Source of the DNA: a virus
Virus record (IMG/VR): IMGVR_UViG_3300021364_001752
Span: 1-64,000 of that record
DNA: 64,000 nt
Strand: one strand, 5' to 3'
The position numbers were made by a program, and so were the translations under genes. The notes under the pieces were generated by a model. It was not told the origin of the DNA and searched no databases. It worked only from the letters and a program-made list of their open reading frames with translations. Positions 10,245 to 50,169 of this stretch are shown here, piece by piece. Numbering within the stretch: the stretch's first letter is position 1; each line of letters opens with the position of its first letter.

Positions 10245-11426
10245 ATGCACATATCAGAATTTGCTAAACCGGTAACATCAAAGAGCTTGAACGAAAGTCT
10301 AGCTCGCCGTTTCGGTAATAAAATTAAATTAGAAACTTATACATTGGAGCAGCTACAAGATGCTCGCAATAAACTACGCACAAAACTTAGTCAAGTTGAA
10401 ATGACTGAAAACTTTAATACAGTCGTAGAAAGCGATAGTTACCAAAAAAGTAAACTAATGTTAGACATTCTAAATGCTGCTATTACAGAGCGTGGGGATA
10501 TCGAAGAAGCTGAAGCAAAGCCAGACTTCCGTGATGTTGATGGCGACGGCGATCGCGAAGAATCATGGAAAGATGCTGAAAAGGACAAAGAAGAACAAAC
10601 AGACGAAGGTGCATACGGTAAAAAGAAAAAGAAGCGCAAAATGTCTGAAGGTGCTGAAGATCAGGCAGAGATTGTTATGGCAGCAAAAGAAATGGTTGAC
10701 CGTCTTACTGGTTGGATGGAAGACACAGCTGAAATGCAAACTGAATCTATGCTAGAACTTGCAGATGCTATTCGTGATGAAATGGGTTCACAACAAAGCC
10801 AAGCATATGTAGACAGCATCAAGCCTGCTCTACAAGATCTTTACAGTGCAATGGAGGTCACACGTGGTGCATTAAGTTCAGGTGTTGGCATGCTCACTGG
10901 TGAAGAACAACCAGCAGCACCAATGGGTGCAGAAGAACCAATGCCAGCAGGTGACGAAATGGCAATGGAACCAACAGTAGATATGGAAGCACCAGTTGAT
11001 GATGGCGAAGGCTTTGCTGTCGCTGGCGCAGCAGCTGGAGGAGATGAAGCAGCAGGTAGAGCACGTAGAGAGTCTATACAGTTTAACGAAGACAACGCTG
11101 GCGCTGATATTGAAGATGCCTGGAAAGGACATCTAAGCGCGGAATTGGTTGGCCCAGAAGCTCGTGAAGAAGTTAAAAAATTAATACTTGCATATCGTCA
11201 CCAAATGAAGATTGGTAACAAAGCCGGAGCAATGTTAATTCTTGATACTATTAAGAAAAAGCATGATTGGGCGATGTATATAATAAAAGGTGACAATTTG
11301 CTTGACATCGCACCACAATCGAACATACCGCCTAACCAGTCACGACCAATGTCGACTCCTAACCAAAGAGAAAGTGTTGATCCACGCAAGCTGGCCAACA
11401 AACTTGCTAGCTCAAAAAAAAAGTAA
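10245..11426 (+). CDS. Acidic late structural/scaffold-like protein
   Basis: A 393-aa protein. Residues 1-90 are helical (LEQLQDARNKLRTKLSQVEM, DSYQKSKLMLDILNAAI). The middle (about 95-130) is highly charged and resembles an EF-hand-like acidic stretch (DVDGDGDREE). Residues about 220-270 are Ala/Met/Pro/Glu rich. The C-terminus is basic and ends LASSKKK. Proteins of this build lie among head/core genes of marine T4-like phages, so a prohead-core or virion role is likely but unproven. The gene ends at an A AAA AAG slippery run, and an open -1 frame continues for 105 codons, so a longer fusion form is possible. Confidence 0.72.
   Translation: MHISEFAKPVTSKSLNESLARRFGNKIKLETYTLEQLQDARNKLRTKLSQVEMTENFNTVVESDSYQKSKLMLDILNAAITERGDIEEAEAKPDFRDVDGDGDREESWKDAEKDKEEQTDEGAYGKKKKKRKMSEGAEDQAEIVMAAKEMVDRLTGWMEDTAEMQTESMLELADAIRDEMGSQQSQAYVDSIKPALQDLYSAMEVTRGALSSGVGMLTGEEQPAAPMGAEEPMPAGDEMAMEPTVDMEAPVDDGEGFAVAGAAAGGDEAAGRARRESIQFNEDNAGADIEDAWKGHLSAELVGPEAREEVKKLILAYRHQMKIGNKAGAMLILDTIKKKHDWAMYIIKGDNLLDIAPQSNIPPNQSRPMSTPNQRESVDPRKLANKLASSKKK
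11414..11426 (+). promoter_or_regulatory. Candidate programmed -1 frameshift site (A AAA AAG)
   Basis: Nine A followed by G (11414-11423). In the reading frame this is TCA AAA AAA AAG TAA, so the last sense codons form the A AAA AAG heptamer used in E. coli dnaX, immediately before the stop. A -1 slip enters an open frame running to 11740. No strong downstream stem was found by eye. Confidence 0.6.
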
Positions 11427-11740
11427 TTGAAGCCATAGACACTGATACGCTGTTTGCAACCCTTAGACATCTTAAGAACAAAGGTGTAGAAAGCCTATCG
11501 TTCAAGCAGTTGGATAAGTTTATGGCTAACAGCGATAGACAACAGTTTGATTTTGAAACTTTCAAAGCAGCATTTGATACAGATCCACGTATAAAAAATG
11601 TTGTCACAAACTTTGACCAAGACAAAATAGATTTTAAACAAAGTGAAGTCGACGACTTAGGTGCAGCAAGTGCTCCTGGTGGTGATGCAGTTGGCAAGAT
11701 GGCATCTAAGGCAACTGATCTTGGTGCAAGTTTAACTTGA
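11423..11740 (+). CDS. -1 frame extension of the 10245 gene
   Basis: An open frame of 105 sense codons (KVIEAIDTDTLFATLRHLKN... to ...ATDLGASLT) that continues the 10245 protein after a -1 slip. Its codon use and charged/helical content look coding. The first in-frame ATG (11522) and TTG (11510) have no convincing ribosome site, which favours expression by frameshift. Alternatives are weak internal initiation at 11522, or a homopolymer length error that splits one real gene. Its TGA stop lies inside the -35 box of the next promoter. Confidence 0.6.
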   Translation, partial: VIEAIDTDTLFATLRHLKNKGVESLSFKQLDKFMANSDRQQFDFETFKAAFDTDPRIKNVVTNFDQDKIDFKQSEVDDLGAASAPGGDAVGKMASKATDLGASLT

Positions 11741-11787: not shown

Positions 11788-12105
11788 ATGACTGAAAGAA
11801 CACAAGAGCAGATTGTGGAGCATATCCAGTTGGTGCTGGAGACATATGTTGCACCCGCAGTAGCAGGACACGGCGGAGAAGTAAATTTTGTAGAATACAA
11901 CAATGGCAAGGTATTGCTTGAACTTAGTGGTGCATGTAGTGGTTGCGCAGGCAGCACTATGACACTTAAATTTGGTGTTGAAAACATGCTACGAGATATG
12001 ATTCCTGAAGTAGAAGAAGTTGAAGGAATGGACGATCCATTTAGCACTGTAGATCCTTTCTACTCAAGTGCTCCTCATTGGATGTATGAAGACGAGACTC
12101 CTTAG
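11788..12105 (+). CDS. NifU/NfuA C-terminal-domain Fe-S scaffold protein
   Basis: A 105-aa protein made almost entirely of the Nfu domain: VAPAVAGHGGEVNFVE...LLELSGACSGCAGSTMTLKFGVENML. The C50-x-x-C53 pair binds a [4Fe-4S] cluster at a dimer interface, which the family passes to client enzymes. It has a very strong AGGAGG site and a consensus early-type promoter. The acidic tail (residues 80-105) is extra. Clients could include phage radical SAM or RNR-linked enzymes; this is inference. Such single-domain Nfu genes are known in T4-like marine phages. Confidence 0.9.
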   Translation: MTERTQEQIVEHIQLVLETYVAPAVAGHGGEVNFVEYNNGKVLLELSGACSGCAGSTMTLKFGVENMLRDMIPEVEEVEGMDDPFSTVDPFYSSAPHWMYEDETP

Positions 12106-25418: not shown

Positions 25419-25449
25419 TTGACCTCATTTACATAACATGTTATAAATA
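25419..25449 (+). promoter_or_regulatory. Dual promoter for the tmRNA locus
   Basis: TTGACC (25419-25424), 17-base spacer and TATAAA (25442-25447) form a sigma-70 promoter. The same -10 reads TATAAATA (25442-25449), the full T4 late consensus, so the tmRNA could be made early and late. A palindrome GCATATC-T-GATATGC lies just upstream (25394-25408). Confidence 0.7.
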
Positions 25450-25454
25450 GCTTT

Positions 25455-25516
25455 GTTAGCGTTGAAGCAACGTGGACACATACTGGACCCGGGTGCGATT
25501 CCCGGCAGCTCCACCA
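25455..25516 (+). ncRNA. ssrA: tmRNA acceptor piece (two-piece, permuted tmRNA)
   Basis: The 3' (tRNA-like) half of a circularly permuted tmRNA, placed upstream of the coding half as in alphaproteobacteria. It contains the T arm CCGGG-TGCGATT-CCCGG and ends CAGCTCCACCA at 25516. CAGCTCC pairs with the GGGGCTG that starts the coding piece at 25671, giving a 7-bp acceptor stem with a G-U wobble at pair 3, the alanine identity element. The CCA is encoded. The 5' end is estimated from the promoter. Confidence 0.88.
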
Positions 25517-25529
25517 TAAGGACACTATA

Positions 25530-25658
25530 ATGGCATTGATTTGGACAGGAATACAATACACAAGTTTAGCCGCACTACTGGGAATGTGTGTGACGAAATG
25601 GGTTATTGATTTCCGTGCTTGGAGAGCAGGCAGACAAAAGCCAAAATGCTGCGGATAG
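25530..25658 (+). CDS. 42-aa membrane peptide inside the tmRNA intervening segment
   Basis: ATG 25530 (AAGGA site seven bases upstream) to TAG 25658 lies wholly between the tmRNA acceptor and coding pieces. It encodes one hydrophobic segment (IQYTSLAALLGMCVTKWVI) followed by a basic tail ending KPKCCG. In permuted tmRNA precursors this segment is normally a short processed-out loop. An ORF with a proper ribosome site there is unusual. It may be chance, but length, ribosome site and membrane character argue for a real gene. Confidence 0.5.
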   Translation: MALIWTGIQYTSLAALLGMCVTKWVIDFRAWRAGRQKPKCCG

Positions 25659-25670
25659 TGTTTTTATGAT

Positions 25671-25865
25671 GGGGCTGATCAGGATCGACAGGTGTGAAAG
25701 TGAAGTGGAGTTAACCGGATGACTGCGTAATAAGTCAATCAAACTAGATGCAAACGATAATTTTGCACCATCTGAGTTCGCTCTAGCAGCGTAACCACAG
25801 GGGGTATGGGCTCCACCTAGCAACAGAACGGGCCTCCAAGATGAAACATAGGTTATAGCACATCT
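25671..25865 (+). ncRNA. ssrA: tmRNA coding piece (tag ANDNFAPSEFALAA)
   Basis: It starts GGGGCTGATC at 25671, which pairs with the acceptor piece upstream. The resume codon is GCA 25750 and the tag reads ANDNFAPSEFALAA, ending at TAA 25792. The AND start and ALAA end are typical for alphaproteobacterial tags recognised by Clp proteases. tmRNA rescues stalled ribosomes and marks the broken protein for degradation. The 3' end (about 25865) is estimated. The phage also encodes ClpS and ClpP. Confidence 0.9.
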
Positions 25866-25880
25866 GAAAGGAAACCCAAA

Positions 25881-27008
25881 ATGTTTAAAACAATCGCCGC
25901 ATCGATGATGCGGTTTTCAGCGTTAGCAGCGTTGGCATTGACTATTCTCACTCCATCACAAGCAGCAGCAGAAACCAAAGTAGGTTTTGTTTACGTAGGT
26001 CCAGTTGGCGACCTTGGTTGGACATACCGCCATGACATTGGACGTCAAGCTGTAGAACAAGCATACGGTGATGAAGTTTCTACTACCTACCTAGAAAACG
26101 TGCCAGAAGGTCCTGAAGCAGTTGAAGCAATTACTCAACTTGCAGAAGCTGGACACGATATTATCTTTACGACCTCTTTTGGATTCATGGATGCAACCAA
26201 CGAAGTTGCTTCTAGATATCCAGACATTGCATTTGAACATGCAACTGGTTATATTCGCGAAACTGAAAACATGGCTACCTTTGGAGCACGTTTTTATGAA
26301 GGGCGTGTTGTAGAAGGCATGCTTGCAGCGGAAATGACCAAAACCAACAAGATTGGTTACATCGCATCATTCCCTATTCCAGAAGTGGTGCGCGGTATCA
26401 ACGCATTTATGTTGGAAGCACAAAAGCACAATCCAGATGTTGAAGTTGACATTGTTTGGGTTTACACCTGGTTCAACCCAGCAGTTGAAGCATCAGCAGC
26501 ACAGGCATTGATTGATGAAGGTGCTGATATCATTGTGCAGCATACAGACTCGCCAGCGCCATTAAGTATTGCAGAAAAAGCTGGTGTATACGGATTCGGA
26601 CAAGCGTCAAACATGAGCCGCTTTGGTCCTAGTGCGCATCTTGTGAGTATTGTAGATGATTGGGATAGTTACTATGTTGACCGTGTAGGTGAAGTTATCA
26701 ACGGCACCTGGGAAGGCGGAGACACCTGGTGGGGTCTTACCAAAGACGGTCAAGGTGGCGAAAAGGGTATGGTAGCCCTTGAGAGCTACAATGTCGAAGT
26801 GCTTGGACAGGATCTAGTCGATCGTGCCATTGCACTTGAAGAGTCACTTGCTAATGGTGAGCGTCACGCATTTCCATGTGAAGGATTGTTTATGCAAGAC
26901 GGTTCGGTTCCAGAGGACTGTGCAAATGGCGAAGAGCATCTTACAGATGGAACTTTGCTTGGTATGAATTGGTATGTAAAAGGAATTGACGCATCCCTTC
27001 CAAACTAA
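25881..27008 (+). CDS. BMP-family periplasmic substrate-binding protein (nucleoside/purine-type)
   Basis: A 375-aa secreted protein with a signal peptide (about residues 1-30, ending PSQAAAE) and the BMP/Bmp-PnrA domain (VGFVYVGPVGDLGWTYRHDIG, FTTSFGFMDATNEVA, GFGQASNMSRFGPSAHLVSIVDDW). In alphaproteobacteria this family feeds ABC importers of purine nucleosides and related solutes. No permease or ATPase is encoded nearby, so it would have to work with host ABC components, raising or redirecting nucleoside uptake. It sits immediately after the tmRNA with a GAAAGGA site. Its GC-richer coding and close bacterial character suggest transfer from the host. GMP reductase at 34883 could use imported guanine compounds. 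Confidence 0.9.
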   Translation: MFKTIAASMMRFSALAALALTILTPSQAAAETKVGFVYVGPVGDLGWTYRHDIGRQAVEQAYGDEVSTTYLENVPEGPEAVEAITQLAEAGHDIIFTTSFGFMDATNEVASRYPDIAFEHATGYIRETENMATFGARFYEGRVVEGMLAAEMTKTNKIGYIASFPIPEVVRGINAFMLEAQKHNPDVEVDIVWVYTWFNPAVEASAAQALIDEGADIIVQHTDSPAPLSIAEKAGVYGFGQASNMSRFGPSAHLVSIVDDWDSYYVDRVGEVINGTWEGGDTWWGLTKDGQGGEKGMVALESYNVEVLGQDLVDRAIALEESLANGERHAFPCEGLFMQDGSVPEDCANGEEHLTDGTLLGMNWYVKGIDASLPN

Positions 27009-27190
27009 CCAATTTATATGTTGTCATCCATTATGATGATAGAGACTGGTGGGCACCGCCTAAAACGGTGTCTGCTAGACTGCCCTACGAAAATGCAATG
27101 GATGAGCTCGCTAGGTTAAATGCAATGGCTGGTCCACCGGACAAATATCAAGTTATGATGATTGAATGCCATCGGCCTGGTAAGAAATAA
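26990..27190 (+). other. Small open frame without a standard start codon
   Basis: An open frame in the -1 phase relative to the BMP gene continues past its stop to TAA 27190. It reads LYVVIHYDDRDWWAPPKT and then a helical stretch ending CHRPGKK, which looks coding. No ATG, GTG or TTG precedes it in frame except ATG 27098, which gives only 30 residues. It could use ATC 26993 with AGGAA upstream, be a frameshift extension, or be a gene broken by insertion of the BMP gene. Confidence 0.4.
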
Positions 27191-27191
27191 A

Positions 27192-27222
27192 AAAGGGGGA
27201 GTGTAAAAACTCCCCTTTAGTT
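27192..27222 (+). terminator. Hairpin terminator between convergent units
   Basis: AAAGGGGGAGT (27192-27202) pairs with ACTCCCCTTT (27209-27218, one G bulged), followed by T-rich sequence to 27235. It separates the BMP unit from the convergent gene ending at 27234. Confidence 0.7.
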
Positions 27223-27233
27223 TTGCGCTTTTT

Positions 27234-28241
27234 TTAAAAAGTTTTACCTATTTTTTCTTCGTCGTGGTCAGCGCCGAAAAACTCTTTGTAGGTATCAGGA
27301 TTTATAATGACCTTAAGTTTATCTTCAAGGTTTAATGATTTATACCATTCTTTGAAATTGTTGCCAAATGTGTCTACGTCATCACCAATTTCAACAGTTG
27401 CATTTACCCAGCCAGTGTTTCTTTTCCTGTCCGGATCTACGTAATATTTTACTTCAGGCCAACGGCTTGCCATATCGTCAAGAAAGTCTTTTTTGTTGAT
27501 AAGTGCATAAAGTTTTTTTAGCTTTTCAACATCATCGTTTTGATGGAACGCTATAAGTATACCCTGTAACACTATATCATCTTGTGGATTTTTAATGTAT
27601 TTAGAAAGTTTTTCTACTCTGTAGTGTGCCAATCTACGTAGTTCAATAGCTGATTCAATAGATAACTTGCTACGTAGAGCAAAGGTGGTTGCTACAGCGT
27701 CAAGTTTATCTTGATCGTCCATTTGCGCTAAAGTCATATCCCAATCTCTGTTGGCTCGAACTTCCTTATACATCGGAATATTGTAAGCATCGTATCGTTG
27801 ACTGCCTTGCGATCTTCGGCGTGGAGGAGTTGTAGTAGATCTGCCTTGATCAAAACCTGATGCATCTCTATCGCCTCTAGCTCTACGTCTTCCTTTACCA
27901 GGATTCATCCATTGATAATGTTGACCAGCAATTGCAACCATACCAGTGACTAGATTGCCTAATTTATCTAATAGTTGCTTAGTTTTAGATGAAGGACCAG
28001 CTGCCCGTCTTGAACCTCTAGGCGAATCAAATTCATCTCCATATGCTCTTGGTGGTGCATCAAATTCGTCGCCGTAGTTTGCACCTGGTGGTGCATCAAA
28101 TTCATCTCCATATGTTGCACCTGGACCTGCTGAAAATTCATCACCGTATGTAGCAGGTGTTCTTGCTGACATCATACGGTCAAATGCATCTCTCGAGGAT
28201 GGCATGCGTGGATCTTCACTAAGGATATCAATAATTTTCAT
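27234..28241 (-). CDS. Late protein with YGDEFDAPPGA repeats
   Basis: A 335-aa protein. The start is ATG 28241 (GGAG site seven bases upstream), not the longer frame to 28352, which crosses the late promoter. After MKIIDILSEDPRMPSSRDAF comes a tandem repeat of about 11 residues, YGDEF-D/S-A/S-P-P-G-A, four times (about residues 29-75). A Gly-rich hydrophobic segment (LGNLVTGMVAIAGQHYQW) and a charged region follow, then a helical domain. The N-terminal pattern recalls small virion proteins. It is alone on the minus strand with its own late promoter. Function unknown. Confidence 0.68.
   Translation of the reverse strand: MKIIDILSEDPRMPSSRDAFDRMMSARTPATYGDEFSAGPGATYGDEFDAPPGANYGDEFDAPPRAYGDEFDSPRGSRRAAGPSSKTKQLLDKLGNLVTGMVAIAGQHYQWMNPGKGRRRARGDRDASGFDQGRSTTTPPRRRSQGSQRYDAYNIPMYKEVRANRDWDMTLAQMDDQDKLDAVATTFALRSKLSIESAIELRRLAHYRVEKLSKYIKNPQDDIVLQGILIAFHQNDDVEKLKKLYALINKKDFLDDMASRWPEVKYYVDPDRKRNTGWVNATVEIGDDVDTFGNNFKEWYKSLNLEDKLKVIINPDTYKEFFGADHDEEKIGKTF
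28025..28150 (-). repeat. Tandem coding repeat (YGDEF units)
   Basis: Four imperfect copies of a roughly 33-39-base unit within the minus-strand gene; each encodes TYGDEF/NYGDEF/AYGDEF plus an acidic Pro/Gly linker. Copy number probably varies by slippage between related phages. Confidence 0.7.
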
Positions 28242-48120: not shown

Positions 48121-50169
48121 ATGACCAAAAAAATTCTTCTGTCACCACTGTGGAGCGTTCTGCTTTTAGGCCTCTTAGCCTACGTGATATCGCTGTCGCC
48201 CAGCTTCCTGCAGAGCATCCAACTAAGATACTTCGACCAACTTATAATCAATCAACCAAAAGTTGAAAACAATATCTACACTGTAGACATTGACGAAGAT
48301 ACAATCAACGCATATGGACAATGGCCATTTCCAAGGGGCGATTATGCAATGCTTATTGATGATCTTTATGCTAGGGGTGCAGGTTTGGTTGTGTTCAATG
48401 TTTTAATGAGTGAGCCTGATAGGTCTGGTCAGGACGATATACTTGCAGATACAATGGAACAGTTTCCTGTTATTTTAACCATGCTAGGAGCAGCAGAAGG
48501 TAAAAATGAACCTATCAATCCAGGTGCAACCATTGTTAACAGTGACTTCTTACACACAATTCCCAGTGTTCCAGGCATAATTGCCAATGTGCCTGAAATT
48601 GAAAATGTAGCAGTTGGAAGTGGAATAATCAACTCATGGGCAGAAATAGACGGCGTTACTAGACGCATACCACTGGTTGTTATGGCTGATGGCACATTGT
48701 ATCCTAATGTAACAATGGAAGTGTTACGTGTGTTAGCAGGTGATCCCTCGTTCCAAATCAAACTAAATGCACTAGGTGTAGACAAACTACGCATACCACA
48801 GTTTGGCTTTTTACAAACAAATCCAGATGGTGAAGTATGGATTGACTGGAGTCAAGGATATAAACGTTATAGTGCAGTAGACTTGCCAGACGACTTTGCG
48901 GGTGGTATTGTATTTGTAGGTCCAACAGCAGCTGGTGTAACACAACCTATAGCTACTGCAATGGGCAGTGTATTTCCGCATCAAATACAAGCAGCATTGC
49001 TTGGCACAGTTTTTAACGAATCAAACATAAGCAGACATCCTGACGCAGAAGCATGGGGCGAATTAGCCGCCTTTGTTGTTGCAGGCTTGCTGTTAATCGC
49101 ACTCGCCCGATGGACATATGTTGGCATAGCCTTTTACATTATGTCAGTAGGCGGCTTTATTGGAGTTAGTATATATGTATTTAATACGCAAAACATTCTT
49201 ATTGATGGCGCTACTATCAGTGCTTTCCTCTTGCTCGTGGGCCTTCAACGATACGTGCTCAAGTTCATCGACGAGTTCTTGCAAAAGCAAGCCATTAAAA
49301 AACAATTCGAAGGATACGCCAGCCCAGCAGTTGTTAAATTACTACAACAATCTCCAGAGCTTGTTAAGCAGGGTATAAAGAAAGATGTAAGCATCGTGTT
49401 CTCAGACTTACGTGGCTTTACACCATTAGGTGAAAGTTTTGGTGATGATGTGCAAGGACTTACAAGAATAATGAATGGCTATATGGATGCCATTACACAA
49501 CCTGTGCTAGACGCAGACGGGATGATTATAAAATATATTGGTGATGCAAGTATGCATATACACAACGCACCTATAGACGATGCTAACCACGCTAGAACAG
49601 CAGTGCAGTGTGGCTTAGACATGTTAAGAGCAGTGGAGAAATTCAATGACGAAGTTATTATTCCAGAAGGTCGCCCTCCTGTTGGGATGGGTGCTGGGAT
49701 TAATACTGGCCTTGGCTACATTGGCGAAATGGGCAGTAGTAAGCGGCATAGTTACGATGTGCTTGGAGACGCCGTCTCAACGGCTGCTAGGGTTGAATCT
49801 AAATGTAAAGAATACGGTTGTTTGTTATTGGTGGGAGAAGCCACCTATGAAGCAACTAAGGATGATTTCTTCTATTTAAAAATTGACGACTTGCAAGTTA
49901 AAGGCAAAAGTGTAGGATTAGGCATTTATACAGTTTTAGACGACACAAAGGCACACTTTACAGTTAGCAAAAAGTATCACGATCAAATGCACAAACAATA
50001 TAGAGATCAAGACTTTGACGGTGCTATAGAAACAATAAAGAAAATATACAGTGGATTTGATGGCAGGATGCAAGGGTATTATGATATGTGGATAGAACGT
50101 TGTGAGTATATGAAGAAGCAAGAATTGCCTTCAAATTGGAATGGCACATTTATAGCAACGTCTAAATAG
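48121..50169 (+). CDS. CHASE2-domain class III adenylate cyclase
   Basis: A 682-aa membrane enzyme. An N-terminal membrane helix (about 8-28) leads to a CHASE2 sensor domain outside the inner membrane (about 30-300; VDIDEDTINAYGQWPFPRG is typical). Three membrane helices follow (about 305-385), then a cytoplasmic cyclase domain (about 420-600): metal Asp in FSDLRGFT, K-Y-I-G-D for adenine recognition, and YDVLGDAVSTAARVE for the transition state (Ser where Asn is usual). The K/D pair predicts ATP as substrate, giving cAMP. The late promoter and the neighbouring envelope genes suggest signalling tied to the envelope state. A phage-borne receptor cyclase is very unusual. Confidence 0.9.
   Translation: MTKKILLSPLWSVLLLGLLAYVISLSPSFLQSIQLRYFDQLIINQPKVENNIYTVDIDEDTINAYGQWPFPRGDYAMLIDDLYARGAGLVVFNVLMSEPDRSGQDDILADTMEQFPVILTMLGAAEGKNEPINPGATIVNSDFLHTIPSVPGIIANVPEIENVAVGSGIINSWAEIDGVTRRIPLVVMADGTLYPNVTMEVLRVLAGDPSFQIKLNALGVDKLRIPQFGFLQTNPDGEVWIDWSQGYKRYSAVDLPDDFAGGIVFVGPTAAGVTQPIATAMGSVFPHQIQAALLGTVFNESNISRHPDAEAWGELAAFVVAGLLLIALARWTYVGIAFYIMSVGGFIGVSIYVFNTQNILIDGATISAFLLLVGLQRYVLKFIDEFLQKQAIKKQFEGYASPAVVKLLQQSPELVKQGIKKDVSIVFSDLRGFTPLGESFGDDVQGLTRIMNGYMDAITQPVLDADGMIIKYIGDASMHIHNAPIDDANHARTAVQCGLDMLRAVEKFNDEVIIPEGRPPVGMGAGINTGLGYIGEMGSSKRHSYDVLGDAVSTAARVESKCKEYGCLLLVGEATYEATKDDFFYLKIDDLQVKGKSVGLGIYTVLDDTKAHFTVSKKYHDQMHKQYRDQDFDGAIETIKKIYSGFDGRMQGYYDMWIERCEYMKKQELPSNWNGTFIATSK

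Follow-up and report, generated by a model that had tools for sequence, protein, structure and literature searches.

The E. coli dnaX gene carries a programmed -1 frameshift on the heptamer A AAA AAG, and known -1 frameshift sites do not all need stimulatory elements. Among double-stranded DNA phages, the frameshifted virion proteins described in PMC5009743 include the coat protein of T3 and proteins of the Lactobacillus phage A2 and the Listeria phage PSA. These proteins, like the tail chaperones G/GT, are given a C-terminal extension by a slip near the end of the gene. The internal proteins of T4, as set out in PMC9026906 and PMC9958956, carry a capsid targeting sequence roughly 10 residues long, and the gp21 protease cuts after L/I-X-E.

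The locus described here lies in a 64,000-nucleotide stretch of viral DNA ("the window"; positions 1 to 64,000 of IMG/VR record IMGVR_UViG_3300021364_001752). It consists of a gene for a protein called N here and an overlapping -1 frame coding for a domain called C. The site resembles that of dnaX in having the identical zero-frame heptamer, by which one gene could give two products. It differs from dnaX in that the shifted product is the longer one, the stop codon follows the slip directly, no Shine-Dalgarno (SD) or hairpin stimulators were seen at the window site, and the gene is of a phage virion type. It also differs from the T3, A2 and PSA proteins and from G/GT: N belongs to another family, the extension is predicted to be winged-helix-like and has a phi-x-E motif at the joint, and the separate genes that replace the extension in some relatives begin with a leader resembling a head-targeting sequence. 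Frameshifted virion proteins are already known in phages; what is unusual here is the exchange between slip and own leader, together with the phi-x-E at the joint. The logic proposed below, in which a passenger is fused at a set ratio to a capsid-bound partner and cut during maturation, is close to that of retroviral Gag-Pol (treated in PMC5009743). Nevertheless, this is a DNA phage, the cut is a proposed one and the passenger is neither a polymerase nor a protease. The resemblance to T4 IPII and IPIII, with their targeting sequences and gp21 cleavage, lies in the short, mostly phi-x-E-ending leader of C where C has its own start, and in the similar leader of N. Here, however, C is mostly leaderless and would ride on N, and the residue before x-E is mostly V, not L or I.

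The coordinates are collected in the table below. The N gene ends AGC TCA AAA AAA AAG TAA, which agrees with the original prediction of an A AAA AAG heptamer in the last codons (TCA AAA AAA AAG TAA) of the gene starting at 10245. The stop codon (TAA, 11424-11426) directly abuts this heptamer, and a further in-frame heptamer, A AAA AAA, is at 11414-11420. In the -1 frame the last stop before the overlap is a TAG at 11408-11410. The frame is thus open from 11411 and not, as had been proposed, from 11403, while the predicted 105 codons past the slip (11423-11737, followed by a TGA at 11738-11740) are present. The earliest ATG, GTG or TTG in this frame is a TTG at 11510, inside the predicted C domain, in line with the earlier claim that the -1 ORF has no good start of its own. 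The V codon of the V-I-E motif, GTA, is composed of the last base of AAG and the TA of the stop.

Table. Features of the N/C locus in the window (coordinates are window positions; a slash marks the putative cleavage point)
Feature	Position	Strand	Basis
N gene (frame 0), 393 aa	10245..11426	+	ORF
N-terminal leader MHISEF...SLNE/S, capsid-targeting-like, possible protease site LNE/S	10245..10298	+	conservation, leader enrichment, T4 rule
Lineage-specific 100-codon in-frame insert	11079..11378	+	tblastn; repeat read from sequence
-1-frame ORF (C domain)	11411..11740	+	sequence; purifying selection in relatives
A9 run	11414..11422	+	window sequence
Slippery heptamer A AAA AAG, zero frame	11417..11423	+	window sequence
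V-I-E/A phi-x-E motif directly after slip	11423..11434	+	window sequence
Predicted winged-helix-like domain, H-b-H-H-b-b	11441..11635	+	AF2, Foldseek/VIA
Conserved C-terminal motif VGKMASKATD	11690..11719	+	M93, A94 and A97 invariant in 51 sequences

Relatives were collected by scanning IMG/VR with the C part (25 loci) and with N (the best 80 of 507), and by two further scans, for which N proteins of greater divergence served as queries (80 loci each, on partly overlapping contigs). The loci were classed by profile HMMs of N and C, and one was kept for each distinct 120-base junction. Two loci in which N or C was cut off were omitted. This gave 136 distinct junctions including that of the window; many are closely related, and 84 slip junctions are left at less than 80% identity.

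An in-frame A AAA AAN heptamer is found at the end of the N gene in 122 of the 136 junctions, the window included. All of these 122 have C in the -1 frame, with the heptamer within the open N/C overlap, which is far beyond chance. In the 14 junctions that lack the heptamer the frame of C relative to N is mixed (-1, 0 and +1 in 5, 5 and 4 cases, respectively), and all 14 have an ATG of their own close to the N stop. Nine of these ATGs are preceded by an SD-like motif, four occur as TAATG, and the remaining one, which has no such motif, is located four bases beyond the stop. The original prediction had named as counter-evidence relatives in which the second ORF has a separate start. Such relatives do occur, and apart from one intermediate they are precisely those that lack the heptamer; this coincidence supports the frameshift reading and does not refute it. 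The intermediate, L089, counted among the 122, has TCA AAA AAG AAA TAG followed by its own SD-like motif and ATG. The heptamer and the -1 position of C were also found in L279, a locus detected later in a bacterial MAG. Relatives whose N proteins are 53-70% identical to that of the window share the heptamer, the -1 frame and the lack of an own start, and their conservation supports the -1 frameshift first suggested by the window alone. We regard a frameshift, by whichever machinery, as highly probable.

A tree of 101 N proteins (90 with the slip and 11 with an own start), made by a quick method, requires at least five switches between the two states, four of them forced by well-supported branches. 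The tree is unrooted and does not distinguish gain of the slip from its loss. A second copy of TCA AAA AAA AAG lies upstream, some 60 bases ahead of the N stop, in L051, L066, L193 and L266, and L141 has one as well. The -1 frame is closed at the upstream copy, where slippage would therefore be unproductive.

N matches phrog_14154 ("virion structural protein", "head and packaging") with an E-value of 5.6e-11, which fits the earlier description of the gene as structural. The AF2 model of N is all helical, with two long helices at residues 137-218, and most of residues 230-281 have a pLDDT below 50. An acidic disordered linker precedes the insert, which is framed by an RES repeat: RESI (11067-11078) precedes it and RESV (11367-11378) closes it. 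With tblastn, no relative locus matches N residues 281-393. Within the leader, L15 and N16 are invariant and E17 is conserved in at least 90% of 44 members. Searches of 50,697 phage records by tblastn gave no named relative for the C part (E 0.01) or for N (E 0.001); when N residues 1-280 were searched at E 10, Phosso and Atu_ph07 were the sole matches. Protein gp044 of the Agrobacterium phage Atu_ph07, a virion structural protein, matches the phrog_14154 profile end to end and has the conserved helical block of N, and the gene next to it starts MRLIDLLES. In that phage, however, gp044 and gp043 are two separate genes, and gp043 has no detectable sequence homology to C. No published account of the N/C gene pair was found in the literature searched, which does not imply its absence from print. 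A tail assembly chaperone of the G/GT type was considered and rejected: neither N nor C has a chaperone match, and the neighbouring genes code for a NifU-like domain protein and an exonuclease.

The slip could be made by the ribosome or by RNA polymerase. If the polymerase adds one A to the A9 run, giving A10, normal translation would yield the same N-C fusion by a different mechanism. The A-run is long enough for this: a run of at least 8 lies inside the open overlap in 113 of the 122 slip junctions, and runs of 9 As or Ts are reported in PMC5009743 to slip efficiently in vivo. Further, the run of 9 or 10 is preceded by TC in 102 of the 122, although in the rest of N 894 of the 1,996 Ser codons are AGT or AGC, and the window site has no 3' structure. 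Against the polymerase stand L188, L194 and L238, which read GGA AAA AAG. In these the longest A-run is 6, yet the in-phase A AAA AAG is kept together with a -1 C ORF that lacks an SD-backed start. The three are similar in sequence and should probably be counted as one case. L089, too, has no run longer than 6. That some relatives keep no more than A6 favours the ribosome. So does the third Lys codon: at 100 of the 122 slip sites the codon triplet that ends in the heptamer reads AAA-AAA-AAG (compared with 12 of 110 KKK triplets elsewhere in N), where AAA in the last position would extend the run. This argument is tempered by the fact that the same G also sets the V of VxE.

As to elements that might stimulate a ribosomal slip, there is no structure beyond chance downstream of the window site (z between +1.0 and -1.0), and no consensus structure was found in 10 sequences from around the window's clade. 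Over the 84 non-redundant sites there is a mild excess of downstream folding, the mean z being -0.84 to -1.38 as against -0.16 at 120 bases. An SD-like motif occurs just upstream of the slip in 15 of the 84 sites, compared with 5 and 3 in control ranges, and one clade (n = 15) has a 9-bp hairpin in which two pairs are changed on both sides. Taken together, slippage by the polymerase appears unlikely, though it is the best of the alternatives. Ribosomal slippage is favoured over it, and the slip is probably ribosomal.

The AF2 model of C, made from a 51-row alignment, has the order H-b-H-H-b-b and a mean pLDDT of 71.3. None of the Foldseek matches to the PDB is significant (best E 0.065), and VIA gave Z-scores up to 7.1, with 72 positions aligned and an rmsd of 2.6. 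The matched structures include the winged-helix domains of MCM, Sac3, ESCRT-II and others, none of them strong; many of the rows are winged-helix domains, some of them by their titles. In BFVD an uncharacterised phage protein ranks first (E 1e-3). In the model C looks like a winged-helix-like domain, although the structural matches may reflect no more than a common arrangement. C is slightly acidic. The C of the window belongs to no PHROG or Pfam family, and a scan of the 51 C members gave two weak single matches.

At the joint, a phi-x-E resembling a prohead protease site is found at most 9 residues after the slip in 120 of the 122 slip junctions, whereas after shuffling of the residues the mean number is 23.6 and the highest 37. 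The motif starts with V in 93 cases, with I in 15, with L in 11 and with F in one. The predominance of V is a departure from the L/I preference of T4. Where the stop abuts the heptamer, the codon for this V, L or I is made of the last heptamer base and the first two bases of the stop. When C has its own start, the protein opens with a leader, for example MKISDIINE/G, MLMSDIINE/A or MRVSDIILE/Q, and the leaders of separate C proteins end in phi-x-E in most cases. In three genomes the leader pattern is about 8-11 times as frequent at ATG starts as at internal methionines (3/77 versus 2/391, 6/148 versus 4/784, and 8/167 versus 4/908), an enrichment that is post hoc, as the pattern was chosen after the leaders had been seen and N itself was counted.

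A maturation protease of the T4 type was found in one relative. On contig C57 of the L279 record, the slip gene is at 27006-27764, a match to the S77 prohead protease at 235867-236334 and a match to the capsid protein gp23 at 237745-238689. This record, PBPT01000016.1, is 335 kb long and is filed under a Neomarinimicrobiota MAG; it carries genes for a T4-type S77 protease and gp23 besides the frameshift gene and probably represents a large phage that was binned as bacterial. Neither gp21 nor gp23 was found in the 80-kb record of the window or in 44 other relative contigs (Melnitz served as the positive control in part of these scans), but all of these are fragments, so that the lack of a match is weak evidence either way.

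These observations bear on what the fusion does. The slip might be real and the role of the fusion have nothing to do with head targeting or cleavage, for example if the fusion were an extended minor virion protein. Virion proteins to which a frameshift adds a domain are known (among the cases in PMC5009743), T4 does not prefer a V before x-E, and the head location of N is given by homology only. Against such a role stand the phi-x-E at 120 of 122 joints, the mostly phi-x-E-ending leaders of separate C proteins and the S77 protease of one relative, and we consider it rather improbable. For delivery of C into the head followed by cleavage, the chances appear even or slightly better.

C could also be a separate gene, translated by reinitiation or from a non-standard start codon past the N stop, with no fusion made. 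That own-start forms occur in several lineages is in keeping with this, as is a GTG that overlaps the stop in seven slip junctions. However, 109 of the 122 slip junctions, the window among them, have no ATG, GTG or TTG ahead of helix 1 of C. The other 13 comprise 11 with GTG or TTG only (seven being the GTG that overlaps a TGA stop) and two with ATG. An SD-like motif accompanies a start at the joint in L089 only, and in L205 such a motif precedes a GTG at +29. Translational coupling would, moreover, leave unexplained why the frame is fixed at -1 with the heptamer and mixed without it. A separate gene is thus very unlikely. An error of sequencing or assembly, or a decaying gene, has a negligible probability as the source of the frame break and is ruled out: homopolymers are prone to errors on some platforms, but the A-run, whose length the original prediction had proposed to compare in related phages, takes variant forms (A8, A6, A10, AAC) while the break is shared by 122 distinct junctions, and C, read in the -1 frame, is under purifying selection (pN<pS in 459 of 459 pairs of relatives, L089 omitted; median dN/dS 0.15 in the 326 pairs with usable dS).

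Several other features of the window and of its relatives were noted. Directly 3' of the frameshift gene, at 11788-12105, is a gene for a NifU-like domain protein (Pfam NifU, 85 bits). A tmRNA gene is predicted at 25423-25885, with the tag ANDNFAPSEFALAA, and a tmRNA is also annotated in the Melnitz phage. The gene at 48121-50169 codes for a relative of adenylate/guanylate cyclase-type proteins, 49% identical to that of Melnitz and 34% to that of HTVC008M; in Melnitz it comes after curli-type genes. On a relative phage contig (L108, 15234-16892, G001) the start of an ORF resembles, by eye, cytochrome c oxidase subunit I. A 148-kb relative contig has at its end (L277, 38-3197, G037) ORFs that look GroEL- and DnaK-like by eye, which may be a piece of host DNA or a chimera.

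The reading that we modestly favour is that a -1 slip produces an N-C fusion that carries C into the prohead, where the maturation protease sets it free. Most ribosomes would halt at the TAA and release N alone, while some would slip by -1 on A AAA AAG and make the fusion as a minor product. The leader of N would take N into the prohead core, and the winged-helix-like C would enter with the fusion as a passenger, in a lower but set ratio. After completion of the prohead, a T4-type maturation protease would cut after the phi-x-E at the joint. The freed C would remain inside the head, where it might sit on the DNA or await ejection. More tentatively, at somewhat less than even chances, this would be a Gag-Pol logic in DNA phages. 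By the slip, a head-targeted carrier would receive a DNA-binding-like passenger in a fixed proportion, and this passenger would be freed by the prohead protease at a site whose first residue comes partly from the stop codon of the carrier. Where the slip is lost, a separate ORF with a capsid-targeting leader would take its place.

If this is true, the locus represents a widespread and deeply conserved recoding event in uncultivated phages, which gene callers split into a gene and an orphan ORF. It would also offer a natural comparison of two routes into the capsid for one domain, by frameshift fusion and by a targeting leader of its own. The trans-frame peptides and the cleavage site are predicted and can be checked by proteomics of virions.
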